64,000 nt of DNA, taken from contig NW_023365820.1 in the NCBI RefSeq assembly GCF_000003815.2, positions 32,451-96,450 of the forward strand. The letters run 5' to 3'. The notes under the pieces were generated by a model. The model saw only the letters and a program-made list of their open reading frames with translations. It made no database searches and was not told where the DNA came from. Source of the stretch: Branchiostoma floridae (lineage: Eukaryota > Chordata > Leptocardii > Amphioxiformes > Branchiostomatidae). Each line of letters starts with the position of its first letter. Positions within the stretch are counted from its first letter, which is position 1. This document shows, piece after piece, positions 29,090-60,455 of the stretch. A program made the translations under genes and the position numbers.

Positions 29090-32022
29090 ATGAACTCTGC
29101 AGCGAAAATAACATTTTTTAACCACCTGTTTGCTGTGCTTTGGATGCTTCTAGCGCTGGCTCGGACAACATGGGGTGAAGGTAAGAAGGCGTTGGCCTCT
29201 CAGTGTGAAACTGGTTAAAACAAAGGTGGTCAGTTTGAAGAAAGATTACCAGAAGTGCAGAAGTCAACCACTAGTCTCTGGCATTGTGTACATTTGTTAC
29301 TGACTAAATGGATACGTTTTGCCATTCATTCCATTGGTAGCAGCAAGAATTCACGCTAATACGCTAATTCTGTTGTGACTGTTCTATCGTTGAACATAAG
29401 GAGACGCATTTAGGGTATGTCTGGGCGACGCCATTTTTCCATTGGTTATACTCTGAGCAAAGTAATTAGATCTAAATCTGTGCCACTAGAATGTCAACAA
29501 ACTTGTCTACTAAAACTAAGAACAGAGTATTGACTTGCTAGGGACTCACTACGCAATTCTCGTCTACGAACAAGACATTTGGTAGATGCTGTAACACACA
29601 CAGGTTGTGATTTTGGTTAATGTATACGATTAACAGATGGCTTTGTTCCAGATATTTTATTTCATTCTTTGTAGCCATACGTATTAGCAAGAAGCCACAG
29701 TTTTAAACAATGTATTTAGTCCATACAGTAACTGTTACAAAAACTAGAGCTCTAGAATCCGTATGATTAAAAGACTCAGACAGTGGTTATCTGTATAATG
29801 TTGTACATGGTTACAGTGTAGATACAATAGAAGGGATTAGATATTTATAGGTGTCACATTCCAAACTGGACTGAAAGAATGCGTGCCCTCCCGGTAAAAC
29901 AACACACTAGTACACAAACGACAACAAACGACAGAAACGATTTTTTACACTACATATATCCTTGTGGATTTGTAGATCTATATAAGCAAAGTATAGTATG
30001 AATCGTAAGAAATGTAAACTGCAATATCGTATGCAATCTTTACTGAATGCTAGATGTATATTTTCATCTGGGTAAGGCGCGCTCCCGGCGACAGCCATTT
30101 TAGTCACAACAGGCCGGTCACGAGGGGCTGATCACGACAGGCCGACTGTACCATTATACGTGTGGGGGCTTTTCCTAACTGGGAAAAATCTAATTTCAAT
30201 CAATGTAACTATGTTTTTTATCACTAGAGTACCCATTCTGTGATTCTCAATCAGCGGTTTTTAACAAATGAGCTTAATTACTCAAAGAAGACCCAATAGG
30301 TATCAAAGAGTCTATGGTCACAAGAGGCTGAAACTTTGGGCTTTCTCCTAACTGTGATAAACAAATTTTCAGTCAATTTTTTATTTATTTTATCTATCAC
30401 TAGAGCATCGGTTTTGTATTTTCCGATCACCAGTTCTTAACGAATGGGCTTGATTACTCTTAAGAGCCATACTGGTCACCACAGGTCATAAGTATCAGAG
30501 AGACCATGGTATCGAGCGGCCCAAACCTTTCTCCTAACTGGGGAAAACAATTTTCTGTCAATTTCTATAATATCTTTGTTACTAGAGCAACCATTCTGTG
30601 ATTCTCAATCATCAGTTTTTAACAAATAAGCTTAATTACTCTAAAGAGACCTCTCGTGGCCGTAGCCTTTCTAAACCTTAAAGGTGTCTCTTTTGAGTAA
30701 TTAAGTTTATCTGTTAAGAACAGCAGTTACAGCAGGGAATCTTTCCGGTGTGACTAGATATGCAGCTTGTAAGCACTTGATCGGTAAAAAAAAGTCAAAT
30801 ACAAACCAATAAAAGCAAAAAAAAAATATCAAATACATGACACATTTAAATAAACAGCCACCCAACCAAACCCCACCAGCCCACGATTAAGTACAAAACT
30901 ACATATAACGTTAGGTCTTTCCTCACTTAGCTATAAAAGGAACAAAACCAAATGTCTCTAAAACCAGCTTCACTCTAAGTTATAAAATTTGTTCTTGGTT
31001 CTTTCTGTCTGCATTCTTTTAAATTGTATACGAATTTCCACTTCTTTCTTTCTTTCTGTCGCTATTTTTTCTTTCTTTCTGTCTGCATTCTTTTAAATTG
31101 TATACGAATTTCCACTTCAAAAGCAGGGTTTGTCGCTATTTTTTCTTTCTTTCTTTCCGTCGCTATTTTTTCTTTCTTTCTGTCTGCATTCTTTTAAATT
31201 GTATACGAATTTCCACTTCAAAAGCAGGGTTCGTCGCTATTTTTTCTTTCTTTCTATTTTTAGGAAAATAGACTACAAAAAAATATTTTTCCAGCTAGTG
31301 GTCTATGAGATTCAACGTATTTGGGTTTCTTTTCATTTGCAAACACTAAAAAATTACTTGAATTTATGAAAGCACATTCAGGCTAATTACCAACCATGAT
31401 TACAGATCTATCACGTCAAGCCATTTCCCCTAATGGGGTGTGTTTTGATACTCTTTCTGGGCTCGTGGTAGTCTAATAAAAAAAAGAGGTAAAAATCACC
31501 CCAAAATCACTAAACACGATCCGTGTTTTAATGCGTACTGTCTTTGAAATTCATTTATTTCTGAAGTCTTGTATAATTAAATGTAATATTTGTTTATTGT
31601 CAGACTCCTTTGCTGACCCCAGCATCATGCGTCCCCCCGGGTTGGACAGTGTGGGGCTGAACGTTGTGGTCGGGTCGTCCGTGTGTTTGGGGGTCGTCGT
31701 CATCGGGGTGATGGCCGCCATCTTCTACCACCTGGTCACCAAATAACGCAGGTAAGATTTCTTCACGAACACTGAGTGTAAATGATAAGAGATGAAAGTC
31801 TACGACCGTTTTAAGGGCGGCATCAAGCGATAGCAGTAAGTTACGAAGAATTCTTTTTTTTAAACTGTTGATCACAACCAAACACAAATAGAAATTCTTG
31901 TACTCACAACGCCGTTTGCGTCACACTGTTACAAATGTTCTACATTTTGAACTTGTAACTGATTTATATATAATTTATGTTTTATTTCATATTTTTCCAG
32001 GAGTGAATTTCGTCTTCCTTGA
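29090..32022 (+). CDS. Small single-pass membrane protein, copy A (shortened by a stop)
   Basis: Exon 1 (29090-29180) encodes a signal peptide (core FFNHLFAVLWMLLALARTTW). Exon 2 (31604-31751) encodes a short ectodomain (DSFADPSIMRPPGLDSVGLN) and a membrane helix (VVVGSSVCLGVVVIGVMAAI) followed by FYHLVTK. Donors and acceptors are canonical and the phase-1 junction makes Glu-Asp. In this copy TAA at 31744-31746 replaces the TCA of copies B and C, so the protein ends at about 77 residues. Without it, exon 3 (from 32001) would add SEFRLP and stop at 32020-32022. The helix contains SVCLG, a small-xxx-small packing motif. I recognise no known family. Confidence 0.65.
30165..30725. repeat. Triplicated ~180-bp repeat and inverted pair in intron 1 of copy A
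   Basis: Three degenerate units share 'tttctcctaactg', 'atcactagag', 'ttctcaatca' and 'taattactc'. The last unit is followed by an inverted match (left arm at about 30616-30652, right arm at about 30685-30722, sharing AGAGAC and AATTA). The same structure recurs at 41150-41715 and 50870-51425. Confidence 0.65.
31003..31260. repeat. Copy A-specific tandem repeat in intron 1
   Basis: The phrases 'ctgcattcttttaaattgta', 'tacgaatttccactt' and 'gtcgctattttttctttctt' occur three times here, but once in copies B (about 41970-42030) and C (about 51690-51755). Confidence 0.85.
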
Positions 32023-34127: not shown

Positions 34128-36179
34128 TTACACCTTGAATATCTTGATAGAATGATTGTCAGAAACAACCAAATGTCCGTCGTGAGTAAGTGTTAGTCCC
34201 TTTGGATAGCTCAGTCCGTGTACCGCCGGTGTCAGCACGTGTCTGATAAACGTGCCGTCCCGACTGAACACGGAAACACGATGGTTGTTCCAGTCAGCCA
34301 CGATGATGTTGTCCTCACTGTCCGTGATGACACAGTAGGGTCCACTAAGCTGTCCAGGCCCTGAGCCACGTGACCCACAGGTAAAGAGATGACGACCGGT
34401 GGGGTCAAATATCTTCAGGCTGTGGTTGAGATAGTCACTGATGATGATTTGGTTGCTGCTGTTGACGGTCAGATGGAGGTAGGAACTCAATTGCTGCTGA
34501 CCTTGACCTTTGTCCCCGAACTTGAGAATGACGTCACCACTGGGACTGAGTACAAACACTTGGTACCCGATAGTGACGATGATACGTTCTGAACCGTCAA
34601 CAGCGATACCGAGTGTAGTTATATCTTTCTCTGCAGCCCCTATCACCTGGATGACACGTGCAGCCCTCCCCTGTTTGTCCAGTACGTGGATGTTGTGTCC
34701 GTCTCCTGTCACCAACAGATTACCATTTGTCAGTGCCGCCACACACCATGGGTTGAACTCCAGTTCAACTTTCTTCTTGAAGGAGCCATCTTTGTCAAGA
34801 AACTGCAGACGTCTGTTGTCACGATCAGCCACTACAATTTCTCCATCTGTGGTGACAGCGAGTGATGTAGGACATTTAAACTGTCCATCTCCACTGCCTT
34901 TCTGACCAACAGTTTTTAGTAGTGTAGGACTTACTGGTCGGGTACATATTTCCAAGTTTATCGGAACTGGTGACAGTGTGCTTGTAAATGACACTCTTGT
35001 TTCTTTTATCCAACCTATCAATTTTGACAGGTCCCGTTCAAGGTCACTAGCTTGCGCGTCAAAGGTCAAGTTCATAAAACCGTTGGTCAGTTCAGCCCTC
35101 TTTGTGATTTTCTCATCCGCGGTTTGTTCCATCCGTGAGGTCAGTTCTCCGGCCACCGACATGACCTCCGCTGGACTCCCGTACTCCAACACATTGTCCG
35201 TGAACTGGACACAGCTCTTGGCTGAGGCCAGGTCCATCTCAGTTGCCTCCATGGCGGCTTCCATCTGTTTCTCCCGAGCAGCATTCATGGCGCGAAGCTG
35301 ACTGATTTTCTCATTTTTCACCTTCTGAACGGCCTCTATGATAGCCTCAGCCTGTTTTTCTATCTGTTCTTCTGTACGCTGTACCTGTAAAGGCCAATCG
35401 TTCTTTACCGACTGTAACTCTTTTATCCACTTCTCAAGCAGATCTGCTGTGTTTTTGACTAACGACAGTTTTGCCATGATCGTTGCCCTCTCCCTCTCTG
35501 CCGCCTTCTCTATCTCCACATACTGGTGATCTTTGTGCGCCGTTACCACACAGTGCAGACAGATGACCCGGTGACAGGTGTCACAGTAGAACTTGTTTAG
35601 TTCATTGTGATCCTCACACTTGGAGGTCTCCCTAGCCCGAAGCTCAGCCGTAAGTCGGCCTGATTGTATGTCTTGAATCGTTACAACTTTGTGGGATCTA
35701 CTCACTCTGAGGCCACGGTGCGTTTCGTTACACATCTGACACAGGTAGTCGGTACACTCCACACAGTAGAACTCGGCAGGGTTGCCTCTCTCACAGGCCG
35801 TACAGGGGACTCCCTCCCTCTGTGGTTCCGATGTATCCCCGTTCCCTGTTGGTTGTTGTCGCAGAATGTCGTGCAACTTGCCGACGAGGAAGTTGGACTT
35901 CAGCCCCTGGACGCCATTTTCTGGGAGGGGCACGTCTTGTCGGCACGTCGGACAGGAGAGTTTCCCTACCGGCTTTGTGGCCAGGAGCCTCTCCAAACAC
36001 GGCTGGCAGAAGGTGTGAAGACACGGCAGCACCTTAGGCTGCCTGAAGTCCTCCAAACAGATCTGGCAGACGAGAAATTCCTCGGTTATTTCGCTGAAAG
36101 CGTTGGACGCCATACTTGCCACCCACCGAAACTGAACTTGAGAGGACAACAGGTTTCTTGCGTCATTGGGTTGTCCCAT
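34128..36179 (-). CDS. TRIM-NHL E3 ubiquitin ligase-like protein (copy 1, intact)
   Basis: Single-exon 683-residue frame. RING zinc ligands are C38, C41, C53, H55, C58, C61, C76 and C79. Two B-boxes follow (C126-H163 and C188-H218), then a coiled coil (about 221-345), a linker, and an NHL beta-propeller from about 421 (VGQKGSGDGQF, DNRRLQFLDKDG, NNHRVSVFSRDG). RING domains recruit E2 enzymes and NHL propellers bind protein or RNA targets. No filamin domain is visible, so it is closer in layout to TRIM56/TRIM32-type proteins than to TRIM2/3/71. The ATG is at 36177-36179; a second Met (M23) just before the RING could also serve. Downstream, the 3' end faces small gene A. Confidence 0.92.
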   Translation of the reverse strand: MGQPNDARNLLSSQVQFRWVASMASNAFSEITEEFLVCQICLEDFRQPKVLPCLHTFCQPCLERLLATKPVGKLSCPTCRQDVPLPENGVQGLKSNFLVGKLHDILRQQPTGNGDTSEPQREGVPCTACERGNPAEFYCVECTDYLCQMCNETHRGLRVSRSHKVVTIQDIQSGRLTAELRARETSKCEDHNELNKFYCDTCHRVICLHCVVTAHKDHQYVEIEKAAERERATIMAKLSLVKNTADLLEKWIKELQSVKNDWPLQVQRTEEQIEKQAEAIIEAVQKVKNEKISQLRAMNAAREKQMEAAMEATEMDLASAKSCVQFTDNVLEYGSPAEVMSVAGELTSRMEQTADEKITKRAELTNGFMNLTFDAQASDLERDLSKLIGWIKETRVSFTSTLSPVPINLEICTRPVSPTLLKTVGQKGSGDGQFKCPTSLAVTTDGEIVVADRDNRRLQFLDKDGSFKKKVELEFNPWCVAALTNGNLLVTGDGHNIHVLDKQGRAARVIQVIGAAEKDITTLGIAVDGSERIIVTIGYQVFVLSPSGDVILKFGDKGQGQQQLSSYLHLTVNSSNQIIISDYLNHSLKIFDPTGRHLFTCGSRGSGPGQLSGPYCVITDSEDNIIVADWNNHRVSVFSRDGTFIRHVLTPAVHGLSYPKGLTLTHDGHLVVSDNHSIKIFKV

Positions 36180-37020
36180 TTTACATACAGGGGTTTATAA
36201 TATACTTTGATTAACCTTTCTGTTGCTTTTTGATATCTTAATATCTACGAAGGCTATAGGTTTTGTTGATTTTTCGAAAAGAGTAGATATGGTATAAAGA
36301 TATTCTTTGTGTCACTTATTGTGCTTAACGCCTTACCAACACGGAAGTATCAATACTAGGGGTGGGTACCGGTACAGAAAATTCAGGTCCAGGTCCGGTT
36401 CAGGTCCAGAGGATCAGGTCCAGGTCCGGACCTGAACCTGGACCTGATTTAGTATGACTCATACCAATGGTCCATTTCACTAAAACGAAATCTGTTTAGT
36501 AGAGTATTAGACTCACACTGGCGTTTTAAAATCCTACAACGCTAACTGCACCTGTACGATTGGCTGCAAAACGTGGTAGAAATTACTATAAACTCTACTG
36601 TACTTCACTCTTGTTATTTTCTTCCACCTGCAAGCACCAAAACGTGTGAATGCCTGATATAATAATCTGTTAATTTTCTAATCGGTCCAACATCCGGTGC
36701 ACCTAATCTTTTCAGGTCCGGTTTTTCTGGACCGGTCCAATAAGAGAAAACCGGTTTTGCACAGGTACGCTGTACCGATACCCAGCCCTAATCAATACCC
36801 AATGGGACTGTGATGATAAACATGTACTACGTCATAGGGAAGTCTTATGTTAGGCGTTAGGGGGGGGGGGGTGCTTGTACAGACCCACCTTCCTTTACGT
36901 AGAACAAGAGTGAAAAAAATACGTCGGTGATAAAAAAAATTCAAACTTGCTCGGATGTGAACATTTCTGAATGGTTTTATCAGTAACGTTATTGTCAAAA
37001 GTATGGCGACCATTTAATAT
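36180..37020 (-). promoter_or_regulatory. 5' flank of TRIM copy 1, interrupted by a MITE
   Basis: Homologous to the 5' flanks of TRIM copies 2 (39007-39440) and 3 (48716-49160), for example 'atctacgaaggctatagg' and 'aacacggaagtatc'. Unlike those copies, no small membrane-protein gene starts on the other side. Confidence 0.55.
36357..36790. mobile_element. hAT-type MITE, 434 bp, with 8-bp target duplication
   Basis: Terminal inverted repeats TAGGGGTGGGTACCGGTAC and (reverse complement of right end) TAGGGCTGGGTATCGGTAC match at 17 of 19 bases. ATCAATAC flanks both sides (36349-36356, 36791-36798). The interior is a palindromic AGGTCCAGGTCCGG array. The paralogous flanks at about 39225 and 48930 lack the insert. 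Confidence 0.9.
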
Positions 37021-37129: not shown

Positions 37130-37700
37130 CTTGCTAAATTTAATTGACGGCTTCCATTGTACTATTGAAATCCTTAGCTACTAAGCTAATGATCGTCTTT
37201 TATTTCTTCAGAGAGTTGATAAAAACATTCTATCAAACGTTAGCACCTGCTTTATAACATTTATGATGACGTGCTTTTGACCTTGAAGCAATAGCCTTCG
37301 ACCTAGACAGGTAGTTTCCGACACACTATACAATAGTAACTAACTAAGATTTAACATTTTGCCATTCACAAAATTTACGCTTACACAGTCATAGAATTGT
37401 CTATTGGAACTGTTTCTTAGTTGACCTTGAGATATATCTAGGGTAAACATGTCTGAGCTCGAGCGACGCCATTTTTCCTAAGCTATACCCGCACCACAGT
37501 AATTAGATTTGAATCTGTGCCAAGCACCCACTAGAATATCAACATGCCTGCGTAAGAGAGGAAAAGCAGAATGTAATATCAATATCTTATTCATCGGCGT
37601 GTTTTAATTATGCTGTAGCAACGTATTCCATTTAAAATCATTTTTAAAAAGGTTGATAAATTCGAATTCCTCAATACTATAAAAGTGCTAATTGAAGGGA
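37130..37700. repeat. Block X, duplicated at 43600-44190
   Basis: 'ttgacggcttccattgtact', 'gacgtgcttttgaccttga' and 'aatactataaaagtgct' occur in the same order in both places. The block abuts the truncated end of TRIM copy 2 here and the NHL-only relic at the other location. Confidence 0.8.
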
Positions 37701-39006
37701 AGTCAAACTGTCCATCTCCACTGCCTTCCTGACCAACAGTTTTTAGCAGTGTAGGACTTCCGTGTCGGGTACCCTTTTCCACGTTTATTTTAACTGATAA
37801 CAGTGTGCTTGTGAATGCAACTCTTGTTTGTTTTATCCCACCTATCAATTTTGAAACCTCCGGTACAAGGTCACCAGCTGGTGGGTCAAAGGTCAAGTTC
37901 GTGAAATCGTTGGGCAGTTCAGCCCTCTTTGCGATTTTCTCGTCCGCGGTTTGCTCCATCCGTGCGGTCAGTTCTCCGGCCACCGACATGACCTCGGCTG
38001 GACTTCCGTACTCCAACACATTGTCCGTGAACTGGACACAGCTCTTGGCTGAGGCCAGGTCCATCTCAGCTGCCTCCATGGCGGCTTCCATCTGTTTCTC
38101 CCGAGCAGCATTCATGGCGCGAAGCTGACTGATTTTCTCACTTTTCACCTTCTGAACGGCCTCTATGATAGCCTCTGCCTGATTTTTTATCTGTTCTTCT
38201 GTACGCTGTACCTGTAAAGGCCAATCGTTCTTTACTGACTGTAACTCTTCTATCCACTTCTCATGCAGGCCTGCTGTGTTCTTCACTGTCGACAGTTTTG
38301 CCTTGATCTTTGCCCTCTCCCTCTCTGCCGCCTTCTCTATCTCCACATACTGGTGATCTTTGTGCGCCGTTACCACACAGTGTAGACAGATGACCCGGCG
38401 ACAGGTGTCACAGTAGAACTTGTTCAGTTCATTGTGATCCTCACACTTGGATGATTCTCTTGCCCGAATCTCATTGGCGAGACGCCCTGATTGTAGGTCT
38501 TGAATCGCTAGAACTTTGTGGGACCTGGTCCCCTTGAGCCCACGGTGCGTGTCGTTACATACGTGACACAGATAGTCGGTACACTCCACACAGTAGAACT
38601 CGGCAGGGATGCCTCTCGCACAGGCCGTACAGGGGATTCCCTCCCTCTGTGACTCCGATGTTTTTCCGCTAACTTTTGGTTGTTGTCGCATAATGTCGTG
38701 CAATTTACAAACGAGGAAGTTGGACTTCAGCCCCTGGACACCATTTTCTGGGAGAGGCACGTCCTGTCGGCACGTCGGACAGGAGAGTTTCCCGACCGGC
38801 TCTGTGGCCAGGAGCCTCTCCAAACACGGCTGGCAGAAGGTGTGAAGACACGGCAGCACCTTAGGCTGCCTAAAGTCTTCCAAACAGATCTGGCAGACGA
38901 GAAATTCCTCGGTTATTTCGCTGAAAGCGTTGGACGCCATGCTTGCAACCCACCGAAACTGAACTGGAGAGGACAACAGGTTTCCTACGTCATTGGGTTG
39001 TCCCAT
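37591..39006 (-). CDS. TRIM copy 2, truncated: RING, two B-boxes and coiled coil without the NHL propeller
   Basis: 471 residues. The first 434 align with copy 1 including all RING and B-box ligands (CQIC, CLHTFC, CPTC; CTACARG; KCEDHNE). After the first NHL residues (GQEGSGDGQF) at about 37705 the frame runs into block X sequence, adding 37 unrelated residues ending IIKTRR. It could encode a ligase lacking the substrate-binding part, or be a pseudogene. The coding part itself has no stop or frameshift. Confidence 0.8.
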   Translation of the reverse strand: MGQPNDVGNLLSSPVQFRWVASMASNAFSEITEEFLVCQICLEDFRQPKVLPCLHTFCQPCLERLLATEPVGKLSCPTCRQDVPLPENGVQGLKSNFLVCKLHDIMRQQPKVSGKTSESQREGIPCTACARGIPAEFYCVECTDYLCHVCNDTHRGLKGTRSHKVLAIQDLQSGRLANEIRARESSKCEDHNELNKFYCDTCRRVICLHCVVTAHKDHQYVEIEKAAERERAKIKAKLSTVKNTAGLHEKWIEELQSVKNDWPLQVQRTEEQIKNQAEAIIEAVQKVKSEKISQLRAMNAAREKQMEAAMEAAEMDLASAKSCVQFTDNVLEYGSPAEVMSVAGELTARMEQTADEKIAKRAELPNDFTNLTFDPPAGDLVPEVSKLIGGIKQTRVAFTSTLLSVKINVEKGTRHGSPTLLKTVGQEGSGDGQFDFPSISTFIVLRNSNLSTFLKMILNGIRCYSIIKTRR

Positions 39007-40063
39007 TTTTCGCGACAGGGGTTTGTCAGATACTTCAAGTAAACTTGCTGTTGCTTTTTAAATTTCTTAATATCTACGAAGGCTATGGGATTTGTTGATT
39101 GTTGGTCCTTAATGTTTTTAGTGTCTACGATGGCTGTGGATTTTGTTCTTAAATGGGAAGACATGACATAAGAGACATTCCTTGGATAGTTTACTAAATG
39201 TGCTGGACTCTTTTTGACACGGAAGTATCAGCACCCACTGAAACTATTATAAACATGTGCTACGTCATTGGGAAGATCCATGTACGGCGTTAAGGGGGTG
39301 CTTGAGAGAGCTAAGAGTGGGAAAAAGCCGTTATAAATAATTCAAACATAATCGTTTGATTGTGAAAAAGGCATGAATGATCGATATTATCAGCAATGTT
39401 ATGGTCGGTCACAAGAATGGTGACCTTTGCATATTACGCTGCATTTTTTTTCAGAATTTTTCTTTACATAATTAGAATTATTTAGACGACGTACTGAGGT
39501 ATAATTCTTAAAATTCATGCAATCAACTGCTTCCATGCTACTAATATAATCCGTAGCTACTAAGCTAATTATCTTCTATTTCATTCAGCTAGTTGATCGA
39601 ATTAAAATAGATTATGAAAAAAGTCACACCTGCTTCATAAGATCAATGATGACGTTTCCATATCAAAACAATGACCCTTGACCTAGACAGGTTAAACTAC
39701 GTCTATTGTTAAAATGGATTCAGCGATTACAATAGATTCCGTCTTATCTTTCACTGGCCTCACAAACTCGCATTATTGAAGATATATTCTCAATGTCCTA
39801 AATGTAGCAAAGACGACGAGGTCACGCGAAGACAAAAAACATGTCATAGTTCTAACGACTTGGGTTGGACACTAAAATATGCACTTAAATTTCACTTTAT
39901 TTGGTATTTTCTGACAGACGTTTTAATTGGTACTTCACCCTTACCAAATATACAGCATTACGTGCACGTTTAGTACTGAACTGTTGACCCTGAACGGTGA
40001 AAAGACACCAAAAAAGTTGTCTGACTAGCCGCATCAATTTCTATACCCTAAGCCACAAACAAG
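39007..40063. promoter_or_regulatory. Shared intergenic region between TRIM copy 2 and small gene B (head to head)
   Basis: TRIM ATG at 39006 and small-gene ATG at 40064 point away from each other, 1.06 kb apart. The same arrangement and length recur at 48716-49782 with matching sequence throughout. A bidirectional control region is plausible. Confidence 0.5.
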
Positions 40064-43000
40064 ATGAACTCTGCAGCGAAAATAACATTTTTTAAGCACC
40101 TGTTTGCTGTGCTTTGGATGCTTCTAGTGCTGGCTCGGACAACATGGGGTGAAGGTAAGAACGTGTTGGCCTCTCAGTTTGAAACTGGTTAAAACAATGG
40201 TGGCCGATTTGAAGAAAGATTACCAGAAGTGCAGAAGTCAACCACTTGTCTCTGGCGTTGTGTACATTTGTTACTGACTTAATGGATACGTTTTGCCATT
40301 AATACCATTTGTAGCAGCAAGGATTCACGCTAACACGCTAATTCTGTTGTGACTGTTCTATCGTTGAACTTAAGGAGACACATTTAGGGTAAACATGTCT
40401 GGGCGACGCCATTTTCCCGTTGGTTATACTCTGAGCACAGTAATTACATCTGAATCTGTGCGACCAGAATGTCAAGAAACTTGTCTACTAAAACCAAGAA
40501 CAGAGAACATAATATAAACTCCCGTATTGACTTGCTAGGGTCTCGCTACGGATTTCTCGTCTACGAACAAGACGTTTGGTAGATGCTGTAACACACACAA
40601 GGTGTGATTTTGGTTAATGTATACGATTAACAGATGGCTTTGTTTCAGATATTTTATTTCATTCTTTTGTAGCCATACGTATTAGCAAGAAGCCACAGTT
40701 TTAAACAATGTATTTAGTCCATACAGTAACTGTTATAGAAACTAGAGCTCTAAAATCCGTATGGTTAAAGGACTCAGGCATTGGTTATCTGTATAATGTT
40801 GCACACGGTTACAGTGTAGATACAATAGAAGGGGTTAGATATTTATAGGTGTCACGTTCCAAACAGGACTAAAAGAATGCGTGCCCTCCCGGTAAACACT
40901 AGTAGAAAAACGACAACAAAGGATAGAAACGATTTTTACACTAGATATATCCTTGTGGATTTGTAGATTTATATAAGCAAAGTATAGTCTGAATCGTAAG
41001 AAATGTAAACTGCAATATCGTATGCAATCTTTACTGACTGCTAGACAGATATTTTCATCAGGGTAAGGCGCGCTCCCGGCGCCAGCCATTTTAGTCACCA
41101 CAGGCCGGTCACGAGGGGCTGGTCACGACAGGCCGACTGTACCATTATACGTGTGGGGGCTTTTCCTAAATGGGAAAAAAGTATTTCAATCAATGTTGTT
41201 ATGTTTTCTATCACTAGAGTACCCATTCTTTGATTCTCAATCACCGTTTTGTAACAGATGAGCTTTATTACTCAAAAGAGACCCCATAAGTACCAAAGAA
41301 GCAATAATTACAATAGGCTGAAACTTTGGGCTTTCTAACCGTAATAAACAAATTTTCAGTCAATTTTTTGAATGTTTTCTATCACTAGAGCATCGATTTT
41401 GTATTTTCCGATAATCAGTTCTTAACGAATGGGCTTGATTACTCTTAAGAGTCATATTGGTCACCACAGGTCTCAGAGTCTCATAAGTATCAGAGAGACC
41501 ATGGTATCGAGCGGCCCAAACCTTTCTCCTTACTGGGAAAAACAATTTTCTGTCAATTCTTATAATATTTTTATAACTAGAGCAACCATTCTGTAATTCG
41601 CAATCATCAGTTCTTAAAAAAATAAGCTTAATTACTCTAAAGAGATCTCTCGTGAACGTAGCATTTCTAAAACTTAAAATTGTCTCTTTTGAGTAATTAA
41701 AATTATCTGTTAAAAACAACAGTTACAGCAGGGAATCTTTCCGGTGTGACTAGATATGCAGCTTGTAAGCACTTGATCGGTAAAAAAAAGTCAGATACAA
41801 ACTAATAAAAGCAAAAAAAAAAAAAATCAAATACATGACACATTTAAATAACCAGCCTCGATGAAGTACAAAACTACATATAACGTTAGGTTTTTCCTCA
41901 CTTAGCTATAAAAGGAACAAAACCAAATGTCTCTAAAACAGCTTCACTCTAATTAATTTTGTTCTTTCTGTCTGCTATCTTTAAAATTGTATACGAATTT
42001 CTACTTCAAAAGCAGGGTTCGTCGCTATTTTTAGGAAAATAGACTACAAAAAATATTTTTCCAGCTGGTGGTCTATGAAATTCAGCGTATTTGGGTTTCT
42101 TCTTATTTTCAAACACTAAAAAATTACTTGAATTTATGAAAGCACATTCAGGCTAATTACCAACCATGATTACAGATCTATCACGTCAAGCCATTTCCCC
42201 TAATGGGGTGTGTTTTGATACTCTTTCTGGGCTCGTGGTAGTCTAATAAAAAAAGAGGTGAAAATCACCCCAAAATCACTAAACACTATTCCGTGTTTTT
42301 AATGCGTACTGTCTTTGAAATTTATTTATTTCTGAAGTCTTGTGAGAAGGCACGCATGGGCCATGTCTTATGAAGTCTGCAAGGTTGTTTTATGCGCACT
42401 TGTATTATCAGTAGCACAGTACTGTCTCCCAGTTCTAGCAAACATGTCTGAATCAAATGCTCGAAAGCTCCAGGTTGTACAGAACAGGGCCTGTAGATTG
42501 GTGCTTAAATGTCCACTAGAAACACATGTTAAGCAAATGCATTCAGACTTGGGTTGGCCCATGGTACGAGAAAGATTCGCCATCAGCACATTGACTATGT
42601 TTTTCAGAATACTTGTCAGTAAGGAGCCCCATAACATTTACAGCTCCATCGTCCCTGTCCATTCTACCCACACATATTCAACTAGATTATCCAACTCCTT
42701 CAGTTTTAAACTCCCTAAGCCAAAAACAAACTCAAAAAAGCGAACTTTTCTCTACCGTGCCATCAGTCTTTGGAATGACCTACCACCATACATCAAATCT
42801 CTGCCCAACATCTCACGCTTTAAAAAGGCAATGTATCAAGTCTTTTCAAGGCAATAGTTTTTTTAATAATTGTGTATCTATTATTATCTGTTTGTATATA
42901 TACATGTATGTTTGTGTATATATTTGCGTTTGTTTATGTATGTTTCATATGAACCCTGGTAGACTAGCCCTAAATAGGGCTAAAGGGTATCGGAATAAAG

Positions 43001-46663: not shown

Positions 46664-48715
46664 TTACACCTTGAACATCTTGATAGAATGACAGTCAGAA
46701 ACAACCAAATGTCCGTCCTGAGTCAGCGTTAGCCCCAATGGATAGTTCAGTCCGTGTTCCTCCCGTGTCAGCACGTGCCTGATAAACGTGCCGTCCTGAC
46801 TGAACAGGGAAACACGATGGTTCCCACAGTCAGCCATGATGATGTTGTCCTCGCTGTCCGTGATGACACAGCAGGGGTAGGTCAGCTGACCAGGTCCCGA
46901 GCCATGTGACCCGCACGTGAAGAGATGACGACCGGCGGAGTCAAATATCTTCAAGTTGTGGTTGTCATTGTCACTAACGATGATTTTGTTGCTGCTGTTG
47001 ACAGTCAGACGGAGGTAGGAACTCAATAGCTGCGGACCTTGACCTTTGTCCCCAAACTTCAGAATGACGTCACCACTGGGACTGAGTACAAACACCTGGT
47101 ACCCAAAAGTTACGATGATACGTCCTAAACCGTCAACAGAGATACCTTGTGTAGTTTTATCATTCTCTGCAACCCCTGTCACCTGGATGACACGTGCAGC
47201 CCTCCCCTGTTTGTCCAGTACGTGAATCTTGTGTCCGTCTCCTGTCACCAACAGATCACCGTTTGTCAGTGCCACCACACACCCTGGCTTAAACTCCAAT
47301 TCAACTTTCTTCTTAAATGACCCATCTTTGTCAAGAAACTGCAGGCGTCTGTTGTGATAATCAGTCACTACAATGTCTCCATCTGTAGTGACAGCGAGTG
47401 ATGTAGGGGAGAGAAACTGTCCATCTCCACTGCCTCTCTGGCCAACAGTTTTTAGTAGTGTAGGACTTCCGTGTCGGATACCTTTTTCTACGTTTATTTC
47501 AACTGATAACAGTGTGCTTGTGAATGAAGTTCTTGTTTGTTTTATCCCACCTATCAATTTTGAAACCTCCGGTTCAGGGTCACCATCTGGTGGGTCAAAG
47601 GTCAAGTTCATTAAATCGTTGGTCAGTTCAGCCCTCTTTGTGATTTTCTCGTCCGCGGTTTGCTCCATCCGTGCGGTCAGTTCTCCGGCCACCGACATGA
47701 CCTCCGCTGGACTTCCGTACTCTAACACATTGTCCGTGAACTGTACACAACTCTTGACTGAGGCCAGGTCCATCTCAGCTGCCTCCATGGCGGCTTCCAT
47801 CTGTTTCTCCCGAGCAGCATACATGGCGCGAAGCTGACTGATTTTTTCACTTTTCACCTTCTGAACGGCCTCTATGATAGCCTCTGCCTGTTTTTCTATC
47901 TGTTCCTCTGTACGCTGTACCTGTAAAGGCCAATCGTCCTTTACTGATTGTAACTCTTCTATCCACTTCTCATGCAGGCCTGCTGTGTTCTTCACTGACG
48001 ACAGTTTTGCCTTGATCTTTGCCCTCTCCCTCTCTGCCGCCTTTTCTATCTCCACATACTGGTGATCTTTGTGTGCCGTTACCACACAGTGCAGACAGAT
48101 GACCCGGTAACAGGTGTCACAGTAGAACTTGTTCAGTTCGTTGTGATCCTCACACTTAGAGGTCTCTCTTGAGCGGAGCTCCGCAACAAATTTGCCTGAT
48201 TGTACGTCTTTAATTGTTAGAACTTTGTGGGACCTCGTCCCTTTGAGTCCACGGTGCGTTTCGTTACATACGTGGCACAGGTAGTCGGTACACTCTACAC
48301 AGTAGAACTCGGCAGGGTTGCCTCTCTCACAGGCCGTACAGGGAATTCCCTCCGTCTGTGGTTCCGATGATTCCTTGCTCCCTTTTGGTTGTTGTCGCAA
48401 AATGTCGTGCAGTTTACCAACGAGGAAGTTGGACTTCAGACCCTGGACGCCATTTTCTGGGAGGGGCACGTCCTGTCGGCACGTCGGACAGGAGAGTTTT
48501 CCTACCGGCTCTGTGGCCAGGAGCCTCTCCAAACACGGCTGGCAGAAGGTGTGAAGACACGGCAGCACCTTAGGCTGCCTGAAGTCCTCCAAACAGATCT
48601 GGCAGACGAGAAACTCCTCAGTTATTTCGCTGATAGCGTTCGACGCCATACTTGCAACCCACCGAAACTGAACTGGAGAGGACAAAAGGTTTCTTGCGTC
48701 ATTGGGTTGTTCCAT
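46664..48715 (-). CDS. TRIM-NHL E3 ubiquitin ligase-like protein (copy 3, intact)
   Basis: 683 residues from the ATG at 48713-48715 (the upstream TTG codon is not needed), the same length as copy 1. RING (CQIC ... CPTCRQDV), two B-boxes (CTACERGN ... SHKV; KCEDHNE ... HKDHQ), coiled coil, and NHL repeats (VGQRGSGDGQF, YHNRRLQFLDKDG, CGNHRVSLFSQDG). Differences from copy 1 lie mostly in the linker and propeller loops. Head to head with small gene C. Confidence 0.92.
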   Translation of the reverse strand: MEQPNDARNLLSSPVQFRWVASMASNAISEITEEFLVCQICLEDFRQPKVLPCLHTFCQPCLERLLATEPVGKLSCPTCRQDVPLPENGVQGLKSNFLVGKLHDILRQQPKGSKESSEPQTEGIPCTACERGNPAEFYCVECTDYLCHVCNETHRGLKGTRSHKVLTIKDVQSGKFVAELRSRETSKCEDHNELNKFYCDTCYRVICLHCVVTAHKDHQYVEIEKAAERERAKIKAKLSSVKNTAGLHEKWIEELQSVKDDWPLQVQRTEEQIEKQAEAIIEAVQKVKSEKISQLRAMYAAREKQMEAAMEAAEMDLASVKSCVQFTDNVLEYGSPAEVMSVAGELTARMEQTADEKITKRAELTNDLMNLTFDPPDGDPEPEVSKLIGGIKQTRTSFTSTLLSVEINVEKGIRHGSPTLLKTVGQRGSGDGQFLSPTSLAVTTDGDIVVTDYHNRRLQFLDKDGSFKKKVELEFKPGCVVALTNGDLLVTGDGHKIHVLDKQGRAARVIQVTGVAENDKTTQGISVDGLGRIIVTFGYQVFVLSPSGDVILKFGDKGQGPQLLSSYLRLTVNSSNKIIVSDNDNHNLKIFDSAGRHLFTCGSHGSGPGQLTYPCCVITDSEDNIIMADCGNHRVSLFSQDGTFIRHVLTREEHGLNYPLGLTLTQDGHLVVSDCHSIKMFKV

Positions 48716-49782
48716 TTTACGCAATGGGAGTTTGTAAGAAACTTCAAGTAAACTTAATGTTGCTGTTTAAATTTCTTTATGGGATTTGTTGATTGTTGGT
48801 CCTTGATTTTTTTAGTGTCTACGTTGGCTGTGGATTTTGATAATTATTCTTAAATGGGAAGATATGGCATAAGAGACATTCTTTGGTTAGTTCAATAATT
48901 GTGCTGGATTTTTTTTTTGACACGGAAGTATCTAGACCCACTGTAACTATGATAAACATATACTACGTCCTTGGGAAGATCCATGTTGTTAAGCGGGTGC
49001 TTGTATAGATCTGTCTTTCTTCACAAATCAAAACAAGATTGGAAAAAAGCCGTTATAAATAATTCAAACATAATCGTTCGATTGTAAAATGGCATATAAA
49101 TGATCGATTTTATCAGCAATGTTATGGTCGGTCACAAGAATGGCGACCTTTGCATATTACGGTGCATTTTTTCAGAATTATTTTCACATAATTAGAATTA
49201 TTGAGACTACGTACTGAGGTATAATTCTAAAAATTTATGCAATCAACTGCTTCCATGCTACTGATATAATCCGTAGCTACTAAGCTGATTATCTTCATTT
49301 TTATTCAGCTAGTTGATCGAATTAAAATAGATTATGAAAAATTTCGCACCTACTTTATAAGATCAATGATGAAGTTTTCATATTAAAACAATACCCCTTG
49401 ATCTATACAGGTTAAACTACGTTTATTGTTTAACTAGATTCAGCGCTTACAATAGATTCCGTCTTATATTTCACTGGGCTCATAAACTCGTACTATTGAA
49501 GATATAACCTCAATGTCCTAAATGTAGCAAATACGACAAGATCGAAGACAAAAACACGTAATAGTTCTACCGACTTGGGTTTGACACTATAATATGCACT
49601 TAAAGTTCACTTTATTTGGTATTTTCTGACAGAAGTTTTAATTGGTACTTTACCCTTACCAAATACACAGCAGTACGTGCACGTTTTAATAGTACTGAAC
49701 TGTTGACCCGGAACGGTGAAAAGACGACAAAAAAGGTGTCTGACGAGCCGCATCAATTTCTATACCCTAAGCCACAAACAAG
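48716..49782. promoter_or_regulatory. Shared intergenic region between TRIM copy 3 and small gene C
   Basis: 1.07 kb between divergent start codons, colinear with 39007-40063. The ATG-proximal block (GGAACGGTGAAAAGAC ... TATACCCTAAGCC) is retained. Confidence 0.5.
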
Positions 49783-52700
49783 ATGAACTCTGCAGCGAAA
49801 ATAACATTTTTTAACCACCTGTTTGCTGTGCTTTGGATACTTCTAGCGCTGGCTCGTACAACATGGGGTGAAGGTAAGAAGGTGTGGGCCTCTCAGTGTG
49901 AAACTGGTTAAAACAAAGGTGGCCGATTTGAAGAAAGATTACCAGAAGTGCTGAAGTCAACCACTAGTCTATGGCGTTGTGTACATTTGTTACTGACTAA
50001 ATGGATACGTTTTGCCATTAATACCATTGGTAGCAGCAAGAATTCACGCTAATACGCTAATTCTGTTGTGACTGTTCTATCGTTGAATTTAAGGAGACAA
50101 ATTCAGAGTAAACATGTCTTAGAGACGTCCCATTGGTTTAATAATACTCTGAGCACAGTAATTAGATCTGAATCTGTGCCACTAGAATGTCAACAAACTT
50201 GTCTACTAAAACCAAGAAACAGAGAACATAATATAAACTCCCGTATTGACTTGCTAGGGACACTCTACGCAATTCTCGTCTACGAACAAGACGTTTGGTA
50301 GATGCTGTAACACACACACAGGGTGTGATTTTGGTTAATGTATACGATTAACAGATGGCTTTGTTTCAGATATTTTATTTCATTCTTTTGTAGCCATACG
50401 TATTAGCAAGAAGCCACAGTTTTAAACAATGTATTTAGTCCATACAGTAACTGTTATAAAAAAGACTATAGCTCTAAAATCCGTATGATTAAAAGACACA
50501 GACAGTGGTTATCTGTATAATGTTGTACACGGTTACAGTGTAGATACAATAGAAGTGGTTTAGATTTATAGGTGTCACATTCCAAACCGGACTAAAAGAA
50601 TGCGTGCCCTCCCGGTAAAACAGCACACTAGTAGAAAAACGACAACAAAGGACAAAAACGATTTTTACACCAGATATATCCTTGTGGATTTGTAGATTTT
50701 TATAAGCAAAGTATAGTATGAATCGTAAGAAATGTAAACTAATATCGTATGCAATCTTTACTGACTGCTAGACCGATATTTACATCCGGGTACGAGGCGC
50801 ACTCCCAGCGCCAGCCATTTTAGTCACCACAGGCCGGTCACGACAGGCCGACTGTACCATTATACGTGTGGGGGCTTTTCCTAACTGGGAAAAACACATT
50901 TCAATCAATGTTGTTAGGTTTTCTATCTCTACAGTACCCATTCTGTGATTCTCAATCACCGTTTTGTAACGAATGAGCTTAATTACTCAAAATAGACCCC
51001 ATAGTATCAAAGAGTCTATGGTCACAAGAGGCTGAAACTTTGGGCTTTCTCCTAAATGTGATAAACAAATTTTCAGTCAATCTTTTTAATGTTTTCTATC
51101 ACTAGAACATTGGTTTTGTATTTTCCGATCATCATTTCTTAAAGAATGGGCTTGATTACTCATAAGAGCCATATTGGTCACCACAGACCATAAGATTCAG
51201 AGAGACCATTGTATCGAGAGGCCCGAACCTTTATCCTAACTGGAAAAAAACAATTTTCTGTCAATTTCTATAATATCTTTGTTACTAGAGCAACCATTCT
51301 GTGATTCTCAATCATCCGTTTTTAACAAATGAGCTTAATTACTCTAAAGAGACCTCTCGTGGCCGAAGCCTTTCTAAACCTTAAAGGTGTCTCTTTTGAG
51401 TAATTAAGTTTATCTGTTAAGAACAGCAGTTACAGCAGGGAATCTTTCCGGTGTGACTAGATATGCAGCTTGTAAGCACTTGATCGGTAAAAAAAGTCAG
51501 ATACAAACCAATAAAAGCAAAAAAAAAATATCAAATACATGACACATTTAAATAAACAGCCACCCAACCACCGCCCACGATTAAGTACAAAACTACATAT
51601 AACGTTAGGTCTTTCCTCACTTAGCTATGAAAGGAACAAAACCAAATGTCTCTAAAAGCAGCTTTAGTCTAAGTTATTTTGTTCTTTCTGTCTGCAATCT
51701 TTTAAATTGTATACGAATTTCTACTCCAAAAGCAAGGTTCGTCGCTATTTTTAGGAAAATAGACTACAACTAGAAAGGCCGACATTTGCTTGGGTGCAAA
51801 TACAGCATATTTCAGCAATACCCATTCCCATGCAACATCGGACTGTTCCAAGTCACCCCTGCTCAAAAATGGAACATTTTAACAGTAACTTATCCCCAAA
51901 AGGAAACTAATATTGTGAATTGATTCCAGGTCAAAACGGAGCTTGCCCAATATGCCCCGGGCCAATGTGGAAGAATATACACTTTCACAGGAGCCCCTTT
52001 GCATAACGAATTAGTTATTAGAATCGCGGCAGCTTCTATTTTTCCAAAAGTGAAAAAAAAGCATCGCACCTTCCATTCAGAAAATATTCATCATGAAATT
52101 ACATGAAACCATTCAACAATTTCCACTACAACAACTAGGTCTAAGTACCGTTATAAGCTCCTTTTGAACTAGAAGTAACTACATTTGCTCTTTCCATAGC
52201 CTGGATTCCATACCCCAACCTCAAGATATATCTTTCGTGTTGGGGTCTGGCAACATGGCTGTAGAAAGGTTCTCGAAGGCCCGTTGATCAGTGGGAGGAG
52301 AACCTGGGATTGATGACCACTCTCACCACAGGTAGCCAGCTACAACACACCACAGTTGGTCAGCAGGCTATCACAGTAGCGAATCAGCTACGTTATGGAT
52401 TCAAAAAGTATAGTTGGGGGTCTTAAACCAATCATGGCAGGGGTGTAATTACCTCCTGCTGATCCTGTGTTGTTCTATTGGTGGGGTTTTTTGCCCACTA
52501 TAAGGTGCAAAATTGAGAACCCGGCCTATGCCATCCTGCCAGACCCCAGCACGATAGATACTTGAGATCGGGCTGGGGTTTGGTAACCAGGCTACTCTTT
52601 CCAGTACAGGGAGAGAAATGTTGCCACTATAGACATATGGCCACTATAAAAAAAAATGCTGATCTATTGACGAAGAGCAATAAGTTACACATAATTTAAG

Positions 52701-55700: not shown

Positions 55701-58700
55701 GAATCACTTTGAAGATTTGACAGGAGAAAGAAAGAAAGAAGAAGAAACATTACGAAGACAATATATTTCACCATACTATGTATGGCTGAAATATAAGAAA
55801 TATATATGTAGCTGGTGGTCTATGAGATTTAGCGTATTTTTGTTTCTTTTCATTTTCAAACACACAAAAAAAATACTTGAATTTTTAAAAGCACATTAAG
55901 GCTAATTACCAACCATGAACAAAGATCTATCACGTCATGACGTCAAGCCATTTCCCTAATGGGGTGTGTTTTGATACTCTTTCTGGGCTCGTGGTAGTCT
56001 AATAAAAAAAGAGGTAAACATCACCGCAAAATCACTAAACACTATTCCGTGTTTTTAATGCGTACTGTCTTTGAAATTTATTTATTTCTGAAGTCTTGTA
56101 TAATTAAATGTAATAATTGTTTATCTTCAGACTCCTTTGCTGACCCCAGCATCATTCGTCCCCCCGGGTTGGACAGTGTGGGGCTGAACGTTGTGGTCGG
56201 GTCGTCCGTGTGTTTGGGGGTCGTCGTCATCGCGGTGATGGCCGCCATCTTCTACCACCTGGTCACCAAATCACGCAGGTAAAATTTCTTCACGAACACT
56301 GAGTGTAAAAGATAAGAGATCTACGACCGTTTTAAGAGCGAATGTCTGTATGGGTCAAACAATGGTGGCAGGGGTCAAAAAATAGATTTGGCTCATATTT
56401 TGCAGAGTGATAGTACTTGGTACACAACCCCTCAAAATAGCTTTCTTTCTGCTCAGAACCTCTCGTTGCTATGGCAACAGGCCAAAGAAGTTTATGGGCC
56501 ATTTTTCCAGATTTTGGCATGTAAAAAACATGAAAATTGGCCAACTTTAGGGCACTAATACTGATCAATGCTTTAACTTACAAACAAAAGCAGAATGTCC
56601 TGATTAGAGCAATGCCTGAACTTGCATTAAATAGCAGAAAAGTTAATCTTCTGTAAAATCTATGGTCACGGGCAACCTGAATGCAATACACTGTTTTCAC
56701 GTTGTGAAAAAACTGAAATTTTGCCCAACTTTGAAGCACTGAAAGTCCGTAAGTGTACAGATTTTTCGCTTGCAATTCACACCAAATAATAACCCACTAA
56801 AGAGCTATTAGATGAATGCTTGCAAAGTTTGGGTTCTTGTTTTGTTGCTACGCAATTATCCTTTAAAGTGGGTCAACTTTCATGATTTTGAGAAAATGTC
56901 TTTTTTTGCTATCTTTGAACTACTGTAAGTTCTAAACCAAACTTGTTCTGTTATTGGAATTTATTTGAAAGATAAACCAATATATTGTCTATCAAATGCA
57001 TGCTTGTAAAGTTTGCGTTCATGTTTTGTTGCTACGCAATTGTCCTTTAAAGTAGGTCAATTTTCATGATTTTGAGAAAATGTCATTTTTTGCTATCTTT
57101 GAACTATTTTAAATTCCAAACCAAACTTGTTCTGTTATTGGAATTTATTTGAAAGATAAACCAATATATTGTCCATCAGACGCATGCTTGCACATTTCAG
57201 GTTCTTGTATTCTAGCAGAGTATGCACATATCTGAAGTAGGTCGTATTCCACTAATCTTGTTGTTGAAAAAAAAACAGTTACTGTAATACACATGTCACA
57301 GTCTTTGTTTTTTTATAGAAACAATGTAACAGACACGCTATCACCATAAAGAAAAAAAAGTTGTAGAGATTCTACACAAAGTAATACTCGTCTTCAATGT
57401 CCCTCATCCCCTCTTTCATGCCGGGATAAATCATAATCCAGTGGCACAAACAAATGTCTCACTGATACCGTAAGGCTTTTGCGTATGCCGCGGGATTAGC
57501 CCTACATAGGAGGGTGTGTCAGATGCATCCACTCAGAACTTCCAAACATTCTGATATCTCTGCAGCTACGCACGTTACGTATACTCGTGTATGACTACAG
57601 TCTACAGTCTTATGTTTGCTTCCCACAATATTGACTCTCAAAGACTTAACTTGTTTCTACTTTGAACAAATATCACCAATATCAGTGTGTCTTTCTATTC
57701 ACAGTAGCATACATATAAGACAAACATGCGTTTGGTCAACTTCTGCAATGTCTGTGGCCAGTATTCATTTTGAACAATGGCAGGAACTTGGGTACTCTTA
57801 AGGTTTTTCCACAAATGCTGACTATACACCGGCAGTGATTATTGACGACACATCTACATAAAAGTGCTTACATTTCAGTGCTCACAGTTCAATCTTCAAG
57901 ATTACCTATAAGTTCCTGTCCATGGTCAAAATAAGTACACAGAAATAGCAGAGGGTGTACATATTGTTCACATGAACATGGCACTGTAAGTGGAAAGATG
58001 CACAAGTTAAGTCTTCGGGAATCAATATTTGTGGGGACGCAAGCATTTTTAACTTAAGTCACTGTAGACAAGGAGGTTCAACTGCAAATCTAGTAGAATG
58101 TTCAGAAGTTCAGAGTAGATGCATCTGACTTTAACAACGACCATGACTGTGTAGAATCCCTTCAAATGTTTGTTTTTCTTTAGTGTGGTTACACATTGTT
58201 AGTATTACATTAATTCTATAAAAATGAAGACTACCATGTCTGGTGTATCGCCATTGTCAAAAACAAGTTTTAGGATAAGTGCGAAAAACGACCTACTTAT
58301 AGGGACATGTACGTATTCTGCTAGAATACAAGAACCCCAACTGTGCATAGTCATGCATTTGATAGACAATGTATTGGTTTATATTTCAAGCAAATTTCCG
58401 TTACAGAACAAGTTTGGTTTGGAATTTATCACTGTGCAAATATAGCACAAAATAACTATCAAAGTCACGAAAATTGAACTACTTTAAAGGACAATTGTGT
58501 ATCAACAAAACAAGAACTCAAATATAAGCATAGATCTATATCTGATAAACAATATATTGGTTATTTCAATTACACAACAATTTTGGTTTAGAATTTATGA
58601 TACAGTGAAACCTGCCTTAGGGGTCACCTGAGTATAGGGGCCACCTGGCCATTGCGGTCACTTTTTGCCGGTCCCTTGGATTTTTCCCATTGACCTAAGC

Positions 58701-60455
58701 ATTAAAAAATAGTCTATATCGGTCACCTGTCGAATGCGGTCGCGGCCAGACGATTTTCGGTCCGGCCGCTATGCCGACACTGCCGATAGCGGTCACCGGC
58801 GCGACTGGCCGGCCGCGTTACGCCGCGCTAAACCCACGTGGGGTTCACTTTTTTTTCAATTTCTGCACTACATCAGCAAAATGTAGGCTAAACTTTGACG
58901 ATTTACAAAGGAAACATTGTAGTTCAAATATAGCAAAAATGACATATCATCAAAGTCATGAAAATCAGCCCACTTCAAAGGGAAAATGTGTACCAACAAA
59001 ACAAGTACCCAAACTTTACATGCGTGCCTTTGATAAACAATATATTGGTTTACATTCCAAGTAAATTCCAATAACATAACAAGTTTGGTTTGGAAGTTAT
59101 GATTGCGCAAAAATGGCACAAAATGACATATTATCAGAATCATGAAAACTGACCCACTTTAAAGGACAATTGCATAGCAACAAAACAAGAACGCAAACTT
59201 TACAAGTATGCATTTAATAGACAATATATTGGTTTATCTTTCAAATAAATTCCAATAATTTTGGTTTAGAACAAGTTTGGTTTAGAACTTACAATAGTTC
59301 AAATATGGCACAAAATGACATTTTGTCAAAATTATAAAAATTGACCTACTTTAAAGGACAATTACGGAGCAACGAAATAAGAACACAACTTTAATAAGCA
59401 TGAATTTGATAGATAATGTATTGGTTTATATTTGATGTAAGTTTCAATAACAGAACAAGTTTGGTTTGGAAGTTATGATTGTGCAAAAATGGCAAAAATG
59501 ACATATTATCAAAATCATGAAAATTGACCCACTTTAAAGGACAGTTGCGTAGCAACAAAACATGAACGCAAACTTTACAAGCATGCATTTGATAGACAAT
59601 ATATTGGTTTATCTTCCAAATAAATTCCAATAACAGAACAAGTTTGGTTTAGAACTTACAGTAGTTCAAAGATAGCAAAAAAAGACATTTTCTCAAAATC
59701 ATGAAAGTTGACCCACTTTAAAGGATAATTGCGTAGCAACAAAACAAGAACCCAAACTTTGCAAGCATTCATCTAATAGCTCTTTAGTGGGTTATTATTT
59801 GGTGTGAATTGCAAGCGAAAAATCTTTACACTTACGGACTTTCAGTGCTTCAAAGTTGGGCAAAATTTCAGTTTTTTCACAACGTGAAAACAGTGTATTG
59901 CATTCAGGTTGCCCGTGACCATAGATTTTACAGAAGATTAACTTTTCTGCTATTTAATGCAAGTTCAGGAATTGCTCTAATCAGGACATTCTGCTTTTGT
60001 TTGTAAGTTAAAGCATTGATCAGTATTAATGCCCTAAAGTTGGCCAATTTTCATGTTTTTTATATGCCAAAATCTGGAAAAATGGCCCATAAACTTCTTT
60101 GGCCTGTTGCCATAGCAACGAGAGGTTCTGAGCAGAAAGAAAGCTATTTTGAGGGGTTGTGTACCAAGTACTATCACTCTGCAAAATATGAGCCAAATCT
60201 ATTTTTTGACCCCTGCCACCATTGTTTGACCCTTACAGACATTCGCTCTTAAGGCGGCATCTCGCGATAGCAGTAAGTTACGCAGAATTCTTTTTTTAAG
60301 TTGATCACAACCAAACACAAATAGAAATTCTTGTACTCACAAAGCCGCTTGCGTCACACTGTTACAAATGTTCTACATTTTGAACTTGTAACTGATTTAT
60401 ATATAATTCATGTTTTATTTCATATTTTTCCAGGAGTGAATTTCGTCTTCCTTAA
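49783..60455 (+). CDS. Small single-pass membrane protein, copy C (full length, introns enlarged by insertions)
   Basis: Exons: 49783-49873 (91 nt, signal peptide ending WILLALARTTWGE), 56131-56278 (148 nt, DSFADPSIIRPPGLDSVGLN and helix with LGVVVIAVMAAIFYHLV) and 60434-60455 (SEFRLP, TAA). The coding exons are intact although intron 1 holds a 4-kb composite insertion (51770-55808) and intron 2 a 3.9-kb foldback element (56336-60248). Retention of frame and splice sites suggests the gene is, or recently was, under selection. Divergent from TRIM copy 3. Confidence 0.65.
50870..51425. repeat. Triplicated intron repeat and inverted pair, copy C
   Basis: Same layout as at 30165-30725 and 41150-41715. 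Confidence 0.6.
52197..52594. mobile_element. MITE, 398 bp, with 9-bp target duplication
   Basis: Ends TAGCCTGG...CCAGGCTA, with TIR homology extending about 24 bp (ACCCCA and CAAG shared). CTCTTTCCA flanks both sides (52188-52196 and 52595-52603). A 9-bp duplication points to a Mutator-like origin, an inference from size alone. Confidence 0.85.
52834..54170. repeat. 662-bp tandem repeat, two copies, with partial copies beyond
   Basis: 52834 and 53496 both begin AACGC[GA]AACTGGCCAATTT. The later phrases 'cgccatgcggaatgttggtt', 'gtaccgtccgctacaaatga' and 'gcttatgaatattaattagc' keep the offset. A diverged part recurs at about 55305-55640. Confidence 0.85.
56336..60248. mobile_element. 3.9-kb foldback element with TTAA target duplication
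   Basis: About 880 bp at each end (56336-57220 and 59370-60248) are inverted copies of each other, made of a unique outer 470 bp and inner ~180-bp tandem subunits (several more on the right arm). TTAA flanks both sides (56332-56335, 60249-60252). Copies A and B show the empty TTAA site. No transposase frame is present, so it is non-autonomous. TTAA duplication is the hallmark of piggyBac and some other cut-and-paste families; the GAGCGAATGTCTG terminus does not identify which. Confidence 0.9.
58608..58852. mobile_element. Fragment with pogo/Tigger-like terminus nested in the foldback element
   Basis: The sequence begins ACAGTGAAACCTGCCTTAGG and continues with repeated GGTCACC-type phrases, GC-rich relative to its surroundings. 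Such CAGTgaAACCT starts are typical of pogo-like MITEs, but I see only one end. Confidence 0.4.

Follow-up and report, generated by a model that had tools for sequence, protein, structure and literature searches.

A putative orphan gene of three exons encoding a type I micro-membrane protein in a TRIM-bearing tandem array of the lancelet Branchiostoma floridae

On contig NW_023365820.1 of the Branchiostoma floridae assembly GCF_000003815.2, a small gene of three exons is present in triplicate within a stretch of 64,000 nucleotides (contig positions 32,451 to 96,450, here called the window; coordinates count from its first letter). The three copies, A (29090-32022), B (40064-43455) and C (49783-60455), are confirmed as a preliminary description of this DNA had presented them. 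Judged from sequence, the chances are about even that they represent a real orphan gene whose product is a type I membrane protein of very small size, carried in a tandem unit that also bears TRIM genes.

Gene model and predicted protein

The exons, their splice-site sequences, their triplication and the coding-like character of exon 2 can be read directly from the DNA. The coding parts measure 91, 148 and 22 nucleotides (nt) in each copy, the last including the stop codon (Table 1). All six introns begin with GT and end with AG, the donors reading GTAAG or GTAAA and the acceptors ending in CAG without exception, and the three copies agree in having a phase 1 first intron and a phase 2 second intron. 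Copies B and C translate into 86 amino acids, while in copy A a TAA at codon 78, within exon 2, leaves a product of 77 amino acids without the SRRSEFRLP tail. The preliminary description, which had reported the common 91-nt and 148-nt exons, the tiny SEFRLP exon, the agreeing splice phases and two intact downstream copies, is borne out on each of these points. It had also stressed that B and C are intact despite multi-kb insertions in their introns. This is accurate for copy C, whose introns are 6257 and 4155 nt long, but not for copy B (2894 and 237 nt; copy A, 2423 and 249 nt). The intactness itself is real, but it is weak evidence, since the 5' part of intron 1 shows only about 8-9% divergence among the copies and copy A is truncated. 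Indeed, the divergence of 7.7% between B and C in this region, combined with the mutation rate reported for B. floridae (5.89e-9 per base per generation, PMC12862219), would place their duplication at about 6.5 million generations, and intact frames mean little after so recent an event.

Gene models of lancelets are reported to be error-prone (PMC4967905), which calls for caution with an unsupported model. Coding character was measured with a codon score trained on the TRIM frames T1 and T3 of the same array and applied to 668 candidate internal exons between 90 and 260 nt in length, with overlapping alternatives taken as separate entries. Of these, 363 lie outside stretches marked as coding. 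In this set of 363, exon 2 ranks second in copy C and fourth in copy B; in copy A the full form is not open, and a shortened form ranks seventh. The score finds true exons, because ranks 1 and 18 are taken by a Pfam-matched LDL-receptor-A exon and a Pfam-matched sulfotransferase exon. Exon 2 of copy B reaches 25.8 bits, against a mean of 2.1 (standard deviation 7.8) for base shuffles, none of which scored as high in 2000 attempts. The small-gene model of the preliminary description thus gains support from the coding character of exon 2. As to the strand, all three minus-strand frames are interrupted within exon 2 in both B and C; openness favours the plus strand in these two copies, the codon score alone not being decisive.

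The predicted product has the layout of a small type I single-pass membrane protein, with a signal peptide, one helix and a basic inner tail. Hydropathy, an AlphaFold2 helix and the tail sequence form the basis of this assignment, which agrees with the layout first proposed. The helix has hydropathy maxima of 2.47-2.61, the putative signal peptide of 1.64-1.78. AlphaFold2, run without an alignment on 48 residues of exon 2 of copy B, returned a single helix spanning residues 13-47, with a mean pLDDT (predicted local distance difference test) of 82.9 and lower confidence at the outer end. The membrane helix, VVVGSSVCLGLVVIGVMAAIFYHLV in copy B, contains no acidic, lysine or arginine residue and a single histidine near its inner end. 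The tail, TKSRRSEFRLP in copy B, is basic, 11 residues long and free of tyrosine in B and C; most of it is absent in A. Two packing motifs had been proposed for the helix, of which SVCLG holds as a small-xxx-small motif, whereas GVVVIG does not, as four residues separate its glycines (the corresponding letters are GLVVIG in copy B and GVVVIA in copy C). A second small-xxx-small motif is GVMAA in A and B and AVMAA in C. Cleavage of signal peptides follows a small-residue rule, and by this rule the putative site is TWG-ED.

We propose that the signal peptide would take the chain into the endoplasmic reticulum and then be cut near this site, leaving a mature chain of about 57 residues. Roughly 20 of these would lie outside and about 25 would form the helix, followed by the 11-residue tail, whose basic character would fix the orientation in the membrane. 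With its outer part so short and no recognised signalling motif in the tail, the protein would most likely act through its helix, packing side to side by its SxxxG and GxxxA faces, either against another copy of itself or against a larger membrane protein, in a manner that may be likened to that of small accessory subunits. A role in partnership with another membrane protein had also been suggested in the preliminary description. That the gene is expressed, like the cleavage site, the orientation, the packing and any partner, we infer.

Divergence between the copies and competing explanations

Across the three copies, 10 of 261 exon sites are variable, compared with 232 of 2261 in the alignable introns (p = 3.4e-4) and 42 of 331 in the flanks (p = 1.2e-4). 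The ten exon changes are six amino-acid replacements, one stop and three silent changes, one of the latter between two stop codons. Nonsynonymous sites, including the stop, vary at 7 of 194, which is again below the introns (p = 0.0014). Moreover, silent sites between B and C differ at 2 of 66 in the small gene and at 47 of 282 between T2 and T3 (p = 0.003). Gene conversion or chance could contribute to this low level of exon change.

Several observations weigh against a functional small gene. Exon 1 has a low codon score (2.8-4.8 bits), and two of the three minus frames of exon 2 reach 19.0-25.7 bits; in copy A one minus frame is open, and there the best minus score (25.7 bits) slightly exceeds the 25.5 of the called frame. 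Membrane-like exons following an acceptor are not rare by chance, seven being present in 14 kb of a control strand. Relative to intron 2 alone (15 of 218 sites) the exons are not significantly slower (p = 0.15), nor are the silent sites of the small gene (2 of 64) relative to the introns (p = 0.06), and windows as invariant as exons 1 and 2 make up 13% (91 nt) and 4% (148 nt), respectively, of those in the 5' part of intron 1. The ratio of nonsynonymous to synonymous divergence (dN/dS), stop codons excluded, is 1.35 for A-B, 1.02 for A-C and 0.85 for B-C, from 5, 4 and 7 changes (synonymous/nonsynonymous 1/4, 1/3 and 2/5), with no preference for silent over replacement changes (p = 1.0). A fourth, degenerate exon 1 elsewhere in the window has lost its start codon and shows 12 nonsynonymous and 2 synonymous differences from copy A; copy A in turn lacks the tail. 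The preliminary description had named a dN/dS near 1, together with stops in other lancelets, as a sign against its family. Numerically the copies do show such values, but these rest on only 4-7 changes per pair, too few to decide, and the copy comparison neither shows nor excludes selection on the small protein. The same method applied to 415 codons of the TRIM frames gave dN/dS of 0.38, 0.32 and 0.28, with synonymous divergence (dS) of 0.18-0.21; by these ratios, the TRIM genes of the array are under purifying selection.

The main rival to the orphan-gene reading, possible though doubtful in our estimation, is that exons 1 and 2, for the signal peptide and the membrane helix, are the stripped ends of a type I receptor. 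Its outside domains, on phase 1-1 exons, would have been lost or would be spliced in from unrecognised exons, so that the protein would be a relic or a truncated form. The phase 1 position of intron 1 at the signal-peptide boundary fits such a history, since introns at this boundary are described as the first step by which class 1-1 extracellular modules are formed (PMC8001218), and such modules could have come and gone there. This support is weak, because phase 1 introns are reported to be over-abundant around signal-peptide cleavage sites in general (PMC1626468). The truncation of copy A and the start-less fourth exon 1 also suit a remnant. However, a scan of the alignable intron 1 (2369 AG-GT pairs in its 5' part and 23 in its 3' part, inserted stretches lying outside the scan) found no phase 1-1 exon of 75-900 nt that is open with splice sites in all three copies. 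Shared by pairs of copies there were only one such exon for B-C, none for A-B and seven overlapping ones for A-C, of at most 111 nt among the five longest per pair, and the seven open frames of at least 100 amino acids that overlap the introns have no Pfam match.

It is also conceivable, if unlikely, that the exons are non-functional passengers, either once-coding pieces or chance open frames, amplified between TRIM genes that are themselves selected. A dN/dS of about 1, set against 0.28-0.38 in the TRIM frames, points in this direction, as do the stop in one copy and the relic exon, and copies this young may look intact without selection. Yet exon variation is about a third of the intron rate, the deficit extends to the nonsynonymous sites, exon 2 has a high codon score, and splice sites are kept in all three copies. 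That part of the array consists of uncollapsed alleles assembled in tandem is hardly credible. Alleles of the Chinese lancelet are reported to differ by 4.39% single-nucleotide polymorphisms (PMC4284660), which is not more than about twofold below the 8% that separates the copies; but there are three copies and not two, the window has no run of N after 21787, and B and C each have intron insertions of their own.

If the orphan gene is transcribed, it would represent an unrecognised micro-membrane protein missed by Pfam, and a case of a short multi-exon gene concealed by long introns. The array would also serve as a test of the fate of a small orphan gene when a unit with selected genes multiplies. 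At present the gene stands as a modest annotation result.

The tandem array and other features of the window

Copies A, B and C sit in a tandem triplication of 9.7-11 kb that also carries TRIM genes and went unmentioned in the preliminary description. The matched stretches are spaced 10974 and 9719 nt from start to start, and in a self-comparison (matches of at least 200 nt) long matches cover upstream DNA, introns, 3' flanks and the TRIM genes. T2 and T3 are oriented divergently to copies B and C, respectively, their 5' ends lying about 1 kb upstream of the small gene. Copy A has some 270 nt of upstream DNA in common with B and C, and in the self-comparison no DNA matching a TRIM gene turned up immediately upstream of it. 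Frame T2 has no NHL match in Pfam, and its 3' end diverges from the continuation of T1 and T3. Pfam gave no match for the open frame at 44546-44929, which lies within the fragment resembling T1 and T3. Most of the last stretch of the window, 61303-64000, repeats the 3' flank of copy A.

The divergent TRIM frame near the gene start in two of the three copies (B and C) raises the idea of a lineage-specific family of minimal proteins, made up of a signal peptide and a helix, that was kept and amplified along with the TRIM ubiquitin ligases as their working partner. The small protein would then mark or recruit membrane targets for the divergent ligase. We hold this to be quite improbable.

Table 1 Coordinates of the features in the window
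Feature	Position	Strand	Remark
Copy A exon 1	29090..29180	+	Signal peptide, 91 nt, followed by phase 1 intron
Copy A exon 2	31604..31751	+	Encodes the outer part and the helix; stop (TAA) at codon 78
Copy A exon 3, coding part	32001..32022	+	SEFRLP and stop TGA, past the codon 78 stop
Copy B exon 1	40064..40154	+	
Copy B exon 2	43049..43196	+	Codon-score rank 4/363; single helix in AlphaFold2 model
Copy B exon 3, coding part	43434..43455	+	
Copy C exon 1	49783..49873	+	
Copy C exon 2	56131..56278	+	Codon-score rank 2/363
Copy C exon 3, coding part	60434..60455	+	
TRIM-NHL open frame T1	34128..36194	-	RING, B-box, NHL (Pfam); co-duplicated neighbour
TRIM open frame T2	37591..39057	-	RING, B-box (Pfam)
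TRIM-NHL open frame T3	46664..48766	-	RING, B-box, NHL (Pfam)
Fragment resembling 3' part of T1 and T3	44435..45081	-	76-77% DNA identity
Fourth, degenerate exon 1	14171..14261	-	ACG replaces start codon; donor kept
Insertion in copy C intron 2	56332..60252		Ends inverted, about 858 nt each
Insertion in copy B intron 1	42344..43015	+	Limits approximate; contains an open frame

The fourth exon 1 and its upstream DNA lie inverted at 14390-14087 and match copy A at 83.9%. Below 14170 the minus strand offers four candidates for a second exon, compared with seven on the opposite strand, nothing above chance. A short inverted repeat is present upstream of exon 1 at 29029-29048, 40003-40022 and 49722-49741 on the plus strand and at 14324-14303 on the minus strand. 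It reads AGACAAC/GTTGTCT in copy A; the fourth copy has AGACGAC/GTCGTCT, with a matching change in both arms, and mismatches occur in B and C. The 23 nt preceding the start codon have two variable columns across the four copies.

The insertion in intron 2 of copy C has ends that are 96.5% alike and is flanked by TTAA on both sides, where copy A has a single TTAA, presumably as in piggyBac-type elements. Intron 1 of the same copy has received about 4 kb at 51770-55794 (approximate), with internal repeats at 52829-53489 and 53491-54165 that are 88% alike. The open frame in the intron 1 insertion of copy B has no Pfam match, and we take it to be the end of a non-LTR (long terminal repeat) retrotransposon.

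Elsewhere in the window, arrays of LDL-receptor-A repeats (Pfam) occupy 19064-21687 and 23060-24562 in tandem units of 123 and 198 nt, with a run of N at 20217-20752 and a further LDL-A exon at 22425-22541. A galactose-3-O-sulfotransferase-like gene (Pfam) has two exons on the plus strand, 10776-10946 and 12616-13512. Between 795 and 2409, plus-strand open frames with a hydrophobic stretch are followed by an 84-nt tandem repeat (1988-2409) encoding LPNTYWPWEIP-like units.

Comparison with known membrane protein families

The predicted product of the small gene has no relative in Pfam, among solved structures or in viral contigs, and in this sense counts as an orphan. The preliminary description had not recognised the family, and no Pfam family matches at its cut-off. 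In a Pfam search extended to E = 10, at which the HMMER filters drop most matches above about 0.1, the sole match was to the Mid2-like yeast cell-wall sensors (PF04478), with E = 0.017 for copy B, 0.0011 for C and 0.15 for A. The corresponding scores of 15.3, 19.3 and 12.3 bits lie under the 23.2 cut-off, and the match covers only the hydrophobic stretch and its flanks. Among solved structures, 5x5v was the only match up to E = 10 (E = 0.21, over a stretch of hydrophobic residues) and was discarded. In viral contigs, 18 stretches fitted a pattern, and tblastn showed no relative among them. Rfam at gathering scores gave no match in the window. Literature searches on small lancelet membrane proteins, amphioxus TRIM/NHL arrays and Branchiostoma TRIM expansion did not mention the gene among the matches listed.

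The TRIM genes of the array, although co-duplicated with the small gene in one unit, encode an unrelated protein. The adaptors DAP10 and DAP12 have a signal peptide, a tiny outside part and one helix, with an acidic residue in the helix and a tyrosine motif in the tail; the small protein differs from them in having neither an acidic helix residue nor a tyrosine in its 11-residue tail. The KCNE/MinK channel accessory subunits are short single-helix partners of larger membrane proteins. To our knowledge KCNE proteins have no cut signal peptide, whereas one is predicted here, and the Pfam search up to E = 10, with the filter limit given above, gave no match to the KCNE profile or to that of FXYD. 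The FXYD accessory subunits of ion pumps are tiny type I proteins that have one helix, only a short stretch outside, a basic tail and the family motif PFxYD before the helix. The small lancelet protein differs in this motif, having DPSIIRPPGLDSVGLN at that place, and resembles the FXYD proteins in its small type I single-helix layout, its short outer part and its basic tail.

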